Positions 5,625 to 55,353 of a DNA stretch of 56,850 nucleotides are shown piece by piece (the stretch's first letter is position 1; each line of letters begins with the position of its first letter). A model generated the notes under the pieces. It made no database searches and was not told the origin of the DNA. It saw nothing but the letters and a program-made list of their open reading frames with translations. The position numbers and the translations under genes are program-made. Source of the DNA: a virus; IMG/VR virus record IMGVR_UViG_3300046171_000223, positions 1 to 56,850 of that record; one strand, written 5' to 3'.

Positions 5625-5969
5625 ATGACAGGTAGACCTATCGAACATGATCTGACAGACGAGCAATTTGGATATCTGATTGCCAAACGAGTTGCGTACA
5701 CGAAACCTGTTAAAGGCGCATACTGGTTATGCCACTGCACCAACTGTAAAGGAGAGACAGTCAAGTCCAGAAGTAGCTTATTAAACTGTTCAATCAACTA
5801 TTCGTGCGGTTGCCTTTACGGTTTCCGTACCCGAGTAGCCAAGTTATCAGGTTATGCACTACCAGTAGTTTCTCAAGCACTCAATAACAAAGGGTTGATT
5901 TCTGTTAAGATCAGAGACCATATCAAGCGAGTGGCTAAAGAACTCAAATCTAGAAAAGGATGGAAATAA
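5625..5969 (+). CDS. Zinc-ribbon protein with a LacI-like helix-turn-helix
   Basis: 114 residues behind CAGAGGATCTAACA. Residues about 36-66 hold a zinc ribbon (CHCTNC ... SCGC), the type found in phage proteins next to HNH or regulator genes. Residues about 72-110 read like a LacI-family DNA-binding head: AKLSGYALPVVSQALNNKG, then a VKIRDHIKRVAKEL helix. This suggests a compact sequence-specific regulator. The fusion is unusual because LacI heads normally sit at the N-terminus before a sugar-binding domain. The stop overlaps the next start (TAATG). Confidence 0.6.
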   Translation: MTGRPIEHDLTDEQFGYLIAKRVAYTKPVKGAYWLCHCTNCKGETVKSRSSLLNCSINYSCGCLYGFRTRVAKLSGYALPVVSQALNNKGLISVKIRDHIKRVAKELKSRKGWK

Positions 5970-6220
5970 TGGAAACACTGCATTTCGTCGAAAAGAACTC
6001 TACTCTCTGGCATACCCTCTGGGCTAAGTTGTGGGAGCAAAACGGCAAACCCCTTGACGAGTATGGAGTACCTGATTTCTCGGAGTACAACCCTCAGTAC
6101 AATGAAATGTGGCAATATATGGGTACAGTAGATAAAGGGTCTAATCAACAGGAGCACCAGTTCCGCCACAGAGCACACCCTTCAAACAATGAAAGAAAAT
6201 ATATTTCAATCATCATCTGA
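5969..6220 (+). CDS. Small unknown early protein
   Basis: 83 residues from ATG 5969, behind AAAGGATGGAAATA and overlapping the upstream stop by one base. ATG 5960 in the same frame is less well placed. It is a Trp-rich, acidic N-terminal half with a basic C-terminal tail. No family is recognised. It is the last gene before a large structured intergenic region. Confidence 0.55.
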   Translation: METLHFVEKNSTLWHTLWAKLWEQNGKPLDEYGVPDFSEYNPQYNEMWQYMGTVDKGSNQQEHQFRHRAHPSNNERKYISIII

Positions 6221-6226
6221 ATTTAC

Positions 6227-6255
6227 TTGACTGCTCACGAGATCCCGAGTATCTT
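6227..6255 (+). promoter_or_regulatory. Early sigma70-like promoter with operator
   Basis: TTGACT (6227-6232), 17-bp spacer containing CTCACGAGATCCC, TATCTT (6250-6255). It drives the structured leader at 6256-6515 and the zinc-ribbon gene at 6516. Confidence 0.75.
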
Positions 6256-6515
6256 GTGATCTTACCAGATCTGGTAAGGGGTTGTCCCTGTTAGTTGTCT
6301 TGTAGCTTGGACAACTAAACCAGATCTGGATGTCTGCTGAGTGGGCAATCCCGAATTATCAAGTTTGGTAGACCTAGTATTCGGGAGTGCCTTGTATGGA
6401 CTCTCATCTTTAAATTGCAAGGCTGTTTCATCGTCAACTGCTGTTCAGTAGTCAGACGGTACAAGTCCCTTGCGAGATGAGAGTCACCCTCACCTCACCT
6501 AACTATCGGAGTGAC
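6256..6515 (+). ncRNA. Large structured leader or small RNA
   Basis: A 260-base gene-free stretch packed with stems. TTACCAGATCTGGTAA (6262-6277) is a perfect palindrome, and CCAGATCTGG recurs at 6320-6329. AGTTGTC/GACAACT is at 6293-6316. GGCAATCCCGAAT (6344-6356) pairs with ATTCGGGAGTGCC (6379-6391), 12 of 13. GACTCTCATCT (6400-6410) pairs with AGATGAGAGTC (about 6474-6484). Inside that, GCAAGG pairs with CCTTGC, then CGTC/GACG, then ACTGCT-GTTC-AGTAGT. The last strand runs into the region before the ribosome binding site CTATCGGAG. I match it to no known riboswitch or group I intron. Confidence 0.5.
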
Positions 6516-6920
6516 ATGTTATCCAAAACTTTTAATTACTGGACAGTACTTAGTGAGTCTCCTCCAGATATTGGAGATCCCAACAAAAAGTACTTGTACT
6601 GTCAGTGTGTCTGTTGCCGCAAACGACATGTACGAGAAGACGATTTAAAAAGTGGGAAGTCAAAGTCCTGCGGTTGTTCTCGTTCTGCAGGGTTGCTGAA
6701 CGTTGTTGGTCAGAAGTTCAACTATTGGACAATTCTGTCTATCGGTAAAATTATCAACACTCATCGGTATGTTAAGAGTCAGTGCGACTGTGGCTATATT
6801 GCCAATTTAAGACTTTCAGCAATTAAACAAAATCAATCTAAATCCTGCGGTTGTACTCGTGCAAAGAAAACCAGACATCCTAGTGATAGGCAAACGCAAA
6901 GCGAGAGAGTTGCTAGCTAA
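6516..6920 (+). CDS. Double zinc-ribbon protein
   Basis: 134 residues from ATG 6516, which has the phage's standard ribosome binding site CTATCGGAGTGAC. The in-frame ATG 6477 lies inside the leader stem. There are two repeats of about 60 residues, each beginning FNYWTVLS or FNYWTILS and ending in a Cys4 ribbon with a final SCGC (CQCVCC ... SCGC; CDCG ... SCGC). Such ribbons accompany phage HNH and AP2-type DNA-binding proteins, so DNA binding is likely. It is preceded by the large structured leader, which may control it. Confidence 0.65.
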   Translation: MLSKTFNYWTVLSESPPDIGDPNKKYLYCQCVCCRKRHVREDDLKSGKSKSCGCSRSAGLLNVVGQKFNYWTILSIGKIINTHRYVKSQCDCGYIANLRLSAIKQNQSKSCGCTRAKKTRHPSDRQTQSERVAS

Positions 6921-9787: not shown

Positions 9788-9816
9788 TTGACATACCCGA
9801 CATCTTACAAGATACT
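9788..9816 (+). promoter_or_regulatory. Possible rightward promoter facing the integrase
   Basis: TTGACA (9788-9793), 17-bp spacer, GATACT (9811-9816). Transcription would run against the integrase gene. CCGACATC (9797-9804) and GATGTCGG (9833-9840) form an inverted repeat across the -10 region, as in other early promoters here. It could make a small or antisense RNA. Confidence 0.5.
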
Positions 9817-9885
9817 ATCATTATCAACAGTCGATGTCGGCAAATCAAGAAAAGGCGAGTCCCTCTTGATCAGATCGTGAGTGAA

Positions 9886-9904
9886 GTGCAAGCATTGCTT
9901 GCAC
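9886..9904. promoter_or_regulatory. Strong hairpin or operator palindrome
   Basis: GTGCAAGC-ATT-GCTTGCAC, a perfect 8-bp stem with 3-base loop, in the gap between the RNR and integrase genes. It could be a protein-binding site or part of a small RNA. Confidence 0.5.
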
Positions 9905-9933
9905 AATCTCTGCTGGAAAGCTGGCCCTCCGAG

Positions 9934-9968
9934 ACTCGGGAGATGTTTGTTTATTTCTGCTCCCGAGT
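9934..9968 (-). terminator. Hairpin just after the integrase gene
   Basis: ACTCGGGAG (9934-9942) pairs perfectly with CTCCCGAGT (9960-9968) around a 17-base loop, starting 9 bases past the integrase stop on the minus strand. There is no U-tract, so it may be a weak or Rho-assisted terminator, or an RNA end-protecting hairpin. Confidence 0.45.
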
Positions 9969-9976
9969 TCCCTCCC

Positions 9977-11117: not shown

Positions 11118-11531
11118 TTAGCGTTTAGCGATTGGTGCGAGTGCCGCTTTCAGCAAATCTGATTCACCCTCTTCATTATCCATTCGTTTAATAATATCTC
11201 TCAACATTAGATTATTTCTCGCTACGATTTCCCGAATCATACGGACATCTTCAGAGATCATTTCCGTATTTACGGATTGGGCAGATCGCTTAACGATAGT
11301 TGTATGTCGAGCATCATCGGTTGCTTGACGTATTTTAACGGCAAGATCGTCAGGTAGTCCCAGTAGCTCAACAGCATCAAAGTAGGTATCGTCAGGGTAC
11401 TGATACCCACACTCTAACCTACTGATTTTCTTGATGTCCATCCCTGTTCTTTCCATAAACTGGAGTTGAGTCATCCTCAAATCTTTCTTTCTCACTGATT
11501 TGATTAGGTTTCCCAGTTCTATGTTATCCAT
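11118..11531 (-). CDS. XRE-type helix-turn-helix regulator, candidate lysogeny repressor
   Basis: 137 residues with AAAGGACGC before ATG. Residues about 4-60 form a Cro/CI-type helix-turn-helix (LIKSVRKKDLRMTQLQFMERT, then DIKKISRLECGYQYP). The rest is a charged helical region, perhaps for oligomerisation. It is divergent from the replication operon and shares the intergenic region that carries paired CTCGTGAG/CTCAC elements at 11574-11589. It is therefore the best candidate for the protein that binds the CTCACGAGATC-like elements in the early promoters. That link is inference. Confidence 0.75.
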   Translation of the reverse strand: MDNIELGNLIKSVRKKDLRMTQLQFMERTGMDIKKISRLECGYQYPDDTYFDAVELLGLPDDLAVKIRQATDDARHTTIVKRSAQSVNTEMISEDVRMIREIVARNNLMLRDIIKRMDNEEGESDLLKAALAPIAKR

Positions 11532-55296: not shown

Positions 55297-55353
55297 TTTG
55301 ATCTCGTGAGTATTTAGACCGTTTATTTTTTCCTAATTTATCGGAGATCGACA

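Follow-up and report, generated by a model that had tools for sequence, protein, structure and literature searches.

In E. coli, a hairpin at the 5′ end of an mRNA stabilises the message and impedes RppH (reviewed in PMC3997798); stabilisers of the papA/ompA type described there consist of one or two hairpins, with pairing within a few bases of the 5′ end and a normal ribosome site behind. Leader stem-loops also follow directly behind early promoters in phage HK022, whose put RNA, about 70 nt long with two stem-loops, binds RNA polymerase as it emerges, so that downstream terminators are ignored; putL lies just after PL, and putL and putR share sequence (PMC9378689). In T4-like phages, the PeSL (promoter early stem-loops) cassettes, as cited in PMC4503421, join a phage promoter to stem-loops at several intergenic places of one genome; promoter and terminator form a conserved composite sequence there, through which genes are shuffled.

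The locus described here lies in a virus record, IMGVR_UViG_3300046171_000223, all 56,850 bases of which were analysed as one stretch (hereafter the window). The phage is a distant relative of HMO-2011-like marine podoviruses (portal protein, 26–28% identity). The region of interest comprises the 295 bases at 6221–6515, bounded by the stop of an ORF at 5960–6220 and by the ATG at 6516, which opens a plus-strand gene (6516–6920). Its 134-aa product is a double zinc-ribbon protein and is related to that portion of HNH endonucleases which carries the zinc ribbon (phrog_374). A second ATG, in frame at 6477, lacks homologue support, and since the zinc-ribbon homologues align from the methionine at ATG 6516, the longer frame is probably not used. 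ORF and homologue alignment thus agree with the boundaries given by a first-pass annotation of the sequence, and folding agrees with its main stems. The ribosome-binding site, TATCGGAG (6504–6511), is present in eight copies in the window, against 1.1 expected; it is repeated ahead of other genes of the phage, and precedes several genes driven by members of the promoter family described below.

The first-pass annotation had held that the pairing in this region exceeds chance, and proposed shuffled controls as the check. The plus-strand MFE of the 295 bases is −108.7 kcal/mol, against a shuffle mean of −82.4 (sd 4.9), a gap of 26 kcal/mol (z −5.4), and none of 200 shuffles folded as well, which confirms the claim. 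In a tiling scan of the whole window (295-base tiles, both strands, ten shuffles per tile), the tile at the leader has the largest gap between MFE and shuffles, −31 kcal/mol; its z is not the lowest in the window, a few other tiles being lower on their ten shuffles each. The complement of the 295 bases also folds well (z −4.4), and G-U pairs, six on the plus strand and four on the minus, give a weak strand preference; the strand assignment therefore rests on the promoter and the direction of the gene. We conclude that the folding of this region is real.

A sigma-70-type promoter lies at the start of the region (6227–6255, plus strand), with a −35 hexamer TTGACT at 6227–6232, a 17-nt spacer and a −10 hexamer TATCTT at 6250–6255. 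The spacer contains an 11-mer, CTCACGAGATC (6234–6244), a putative repressor operator whose exact copies are confined to promoter regions: they lie at 358, 6234, 55276/55300 and 55658/55682 and nowhere else in the window, for which about 0.03 copies would be expected from length alone by an arithmetic estimate. The copies at 55300 and 55682 are on the minus strand, as inverted arms; each of the four on the plus strand begins 2–3 nt after TTGAC, with a −10-like box 17 bases after the −35 hexamer. About eight promoters share this layout (350, 1411, 6227, 11569, 54944, 55268, 55650 and 56686), a set collected by motif that includes members more divergent than the carriers of the exact 11-mer. The claim that the region has its own promoter is upheld by this family, though the 6227 promoter scores no better than chance in a simple promoter scan. 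With a PWM built from the other seven members, its left-out score of 10.2 is within the random Markov range because of a one-base indel between the −35 hexamer and the operator, and its membership is therefore based mainly on the exact 11-mer, together with the hexamers. The syntenic kin phage L007 has TTGACATCTCACGAGATGTCGATAC ahead of its DUF932 gene, with CTCACGAGAT behind TTGAC. A scan of viral contigs for the promoter-operator pattern returned one match, in an unrelated contig, that we take as chance. We infer that the phage's own repressor probably binds CTCACGAGATC; from its sequence and position, we take the small protein encoded at 11118–11531, beside promoter 11569, to be this repressor.

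The family evidence changes the reading of one feature. What had been noted as the first hairpin of the RNA (6235–6259) is promoter DNA, its arms TCACGAGAT (6235–6243) and ATCTTGTGA (6251–6259) flanking the −10 box, and would lie outside the transcript. Inverted repeats around the −10 box, without clear U-runs, are seen in several copies of the family. Promoters 55268 and 55650 lie in nearly identical cassettes, each with such a repeat made up of CTCACGAGATC and its complement. Because the first hairpin belongs to the promoter, and from the layout of the family, with the start site taken as 7 nt after the −10 box, the RNA is predicted to be a 5′ leader that spans roughly 254 nt (about 6262–6515). 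This leader proper, without the promoter hairpin, has an MFE of −98.2 kcal/mol and a z of −5.97, and none of 300 shuffles was as stable.

In the centroid fold of 6262–6500, the leader consists of three domains. Its predicted 5′ end coincides with a perfect palindrome of 18 bp, CTTACCAGATCTGGTAAG (6261–6278), the longest in the window, whose 10-base core, CCAGATCTGG, recurs 55 bp downstream at 6320–6329; the first-pass annotation had seen this palindrome, as one of 16 bp with a half repeated at 54 bp. The two core copies pair with each other in the predicted fold, within the 11-bp stem (6265–6275/6319–6329) of domain A (6265–6329), which encloses two inner hairpins (6277–6280/6286–6289 and 6291–6300/6309–6318) and whose helices have lowest pair probabilities of 0.65–0.93. 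Domain B is a long hairpin at 6343–6392, with a stem of 5+8 bp (6343–6347/6388–6392 and 6349–6356/6379–6386) around one mismatch, in place of the 12/13-bp stem at 6344–6391 noted earlier. Domain C (6399–6485) is closed by a 12-bp stem (6399–6410/6474–6485) and nests three 6-bp helices inside it (6417–6422/6468–6473, 6430–6435/6455–6460 and 6437–6442/6447–6452), under the cap ACTGCT-GTTC-AGTAGT; domain and cap stand as annotated, with limits that had been set at 6400–6484 and a closing stem at 11 bp. Domain C ends 18 nt ahead of the ribosome site, where pairing of the Shine-Dalgarno bases is partial (probability of being unpaired, about 0.1–0.5).

A scan for intrinsic terminators gave no convincing one that would separate the domains from the ribosome site or gene; of its two hits, near the chance number, one is a weak terminator-like site (6277–6289) inside domain A. 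The annotation had left open a leader RNA or a small RNA. The folding, the promoter family and the Rfam search described below support a structured phage leader that matches no Rfam family, whereas the lack of a convincing terminator before the ribosome site leaves a stand-alone small RNA unsupported.

Hairpins at the transcript start recur across the promoter family. With all eight start sites placed by the same 7-nt rule, a hairpin begins 1–4 nt past the predicted start in six of the eight leaders (350, 1411, 6227, 11569, 54944 and 56686); those of 55268 and 55650 have no stable hairpin near it. Against shuffles, promoters 350, 1411, 6227 and 11569 gave p values of 0.006, 0.014, 0.006 and 0.138, and promoters 54944, 55268, 55650 and 56686 gave 0.084, 0.31, 0.33 and 0.004. 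The eight combined give a Fisher p of 6e-6, a somewhat flattering value, as it was folding that first drew attention to the 55 kb cluster behind the motif. In the zinc-ribbon leader, the predicted transcript is paired from its fourth base onward (−34 kcal/mol), and this leader is the longest and most structured of the set, the others spanning 49–108 nt. Its sequence similarity to the other seven does not exceed that of shuffles. The leaders thus have a common layout without a common sequence, as expected if structure alone matters.

We consider it about an even chance that this region is the 5′ leader of the zinc-ribbon mRNA, serving to protect and insulate the message. RNA polymerase would start at about 6262, from a phage-wide promoter family with an operator-like 11-mer in the spacer, and the resulting mRNA would carry the double zinc-ribbon gene together with the small genes that follow. 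Because the phage's own repressor probably binds CTCACGAGATC, this RNA would be made on infection or on exit from lysogeny. Domain A would pair from the fourth base, followed by domains B and C and then by the ribosome site and gene; the 5′-terminal pairing would most likely hide the RNA 5′ end and slow 5′-end-dependent decay, and the stacked domains would most likely hold the ribosome site apart from that end. The predicted position of the 5′ end, a layout repeated without sequence conservation and the lack of a convincing terminator all fit such a leader. Stable pairing within a few nucleotides of the predicted start, with a normal ribosome site after it, is also what is seen in the papA/ompA-type stabilisers. 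However, with three domains over 254 nt, this leader goes well beyond those one or two hairpins and far exceeds the needs of a stabiliser. Further points against a stabilising role are the two family members lacking a start hairpin and the hairpins of 11569 and 54944, which are not significant individually (p 0.14 and 0.08).

The PeSL cassettes offer another likeness, since a promoter with stem-loops is repeated in intergenic regions by the family described here, and since the small genes around the leader vary between kin phages. They differ in that here the promoter and operator are common and the hairpins behind them vary, and the phage is not of the T4 type.

The leader matches no known Rfam riboswitch, ribozyme or sRNA family, as the first-pass annotation had suspected: there was no match at the gathering score, and the best permissive match (E 0.79) was on the other strand. 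In collections that may omit the nearest records, blastn of the RNA against phage and plasmid records gave no relative, and against the whole records of six relatives gave short matches only (best 80% over 35 nt). Scans of viral contigs with patterns for the repeated palindrome and for part of domain C yielded only matches judged unrelated by eye, and a pattern scan of genome contigs yielded none; a covariance model of domain C, searched against 193 sources (2 Mb), found itself and its own complement only. The best 35-nt match and the lone domain C pattern match were dropped as relatives because they look like coding sequence. A group I intron, to which the annotation could not match the region either, was dropped: there is no Intron_gpI match, the predicted stems are nested, and on inspection the sole P7-like strands are unpaired with each other, leaving no P3/P7 core. 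Readings as an omega-RNA/HEARO, retron, pRNA or tRNA-like element were likewise set aside, because a matching model, a partner gene or the core pairing was lacking. Among kin phages, nrdJ as bait found none closer than L007 and L008, and the upstream gene (5960–6220) and the DUF932 gene, used in the same way, gave nothing.

The large domain ending 18 nt before a partly paired Shine-Dalgarno sequence, which is less paired when the full leader is folded than when its 3′ part is folded alone, would suit feedback control, in which domain C or the ribosome-site stretch is bound by the zinc-ribbon protein, or by some other factor of phage or host, and translation stops; the excess of structure leaves room for it. 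However, all 12 close relatives of the zinc-ribbon gene, including those of the two syntenic kin phages, lie 3–53 nt from the upstream ORF (in L007, the leader's place is taken by a gap of 52 nt that includes a short GC hairpin), and because none has a comparable leader, the comparison speaks against leader and protein being a conserved pair, as the annotation's suggestion that the RNA binds the product of the next gene would have it. Moreover, the HNH endonucleases that the protein resembles in part are enzymes acting on DNA, and we regard feedback control as unlikely, although it is the strongest of the rivals. The same excess leaves room for nascent hairpins that bind RNA polymerase and cause downstream terminators to be ignored, in the manner of HK022 put RNA. 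Two features would suit this: the stem-loops come right behind a promoter of early type, as with putL, and several promoters of the phage have this layout. But the eight leaders share no common sequence, unlike the put sites, the leader is 254 nt long, and there is no convincing terminator to read through within the following 3.4 kb; we consider such action improbable. That the leader is a new class of phage cis-acting RNA, sensing a factor or acting on RNA polymerase (by feedback or antitermination) beyond any role as a 5′ stabiliser, seems to us unlikely.

The palindromes leave room for a role as DNA. The 18-bp perfect palindrome at the predicted start and the second CCAGATCTGG core 55 bp away could be operators for a dimeric DNA-binding protein, with the fold of domain A as a by-product. 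A candidate binder is encoded nearby, a zinc-ribbon protein with a LacI-type HTH (5625–5969; a weak match, E 2.6e-4, below the Pfam cut-off), and both strands fold well. Such operators would leave domains B and C, with arms 22 and 63 bases apart, unexplained, and the other family promoters lack these palindromes; we consider this reading, too, unlikely. As improbable as the put-like action is a small RNA, processed or independent, that targets host or phage messages in trans: compact independent domains, an own promoter and the lack of an Rfam match would suit it, but the RNA runs straight on into the ribosome site and gene, and the terminator-like site within domain A is weak. A message-protecting 5′ leader remains our preferred reading. 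The leader is real and strongly structured and stands in an ordinary kind of place; what is unusual is its extent, with no known relatives. In this temperate phage, one promoter/operator family whose transcripts are mostly fronted by hairpins provides a concrete, testable set of leaders, of which the longest is a candidate regulatory RNA, at present a single example.

Several observations concern the surrounding genes. In a comparison that covered L001 and L010, a single protein of L001 corresponds in its front part to the double zinc-ribbon gene and in its back part to the zinc-ribbon-HTH gene (5625–5969); in the window the two parts are split, their order is swapped, and a small ORF and the leader lie in between. 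Relatives of the zinc-ribbon gene (L001–L012 and the window) adjoin ribonucleotide reductase genes in different phages, either directly after an ORF of about 600 aa, nrdA-like where read (L001 and L010), or upstream of nrdJ. The DUF932-like gene (1881–2759 and 2683–2985) has a hairpin-rich insertion of 49 nt at 2676–2724 relative to L007 and L008, which shifts the frame mid-gene; it may be an element for translational bypass or frameshifting, or else the mark of a broken gene or of an indel from assembly. Lastly, a promoter-like site followed by hairpins lies right after nrdJ at 9788–9976, as it does in L007, with a counterpart in L226 around 6961 on the minus strand; this element may encode a small RNA, placed between nrdJ and the integrase gene.
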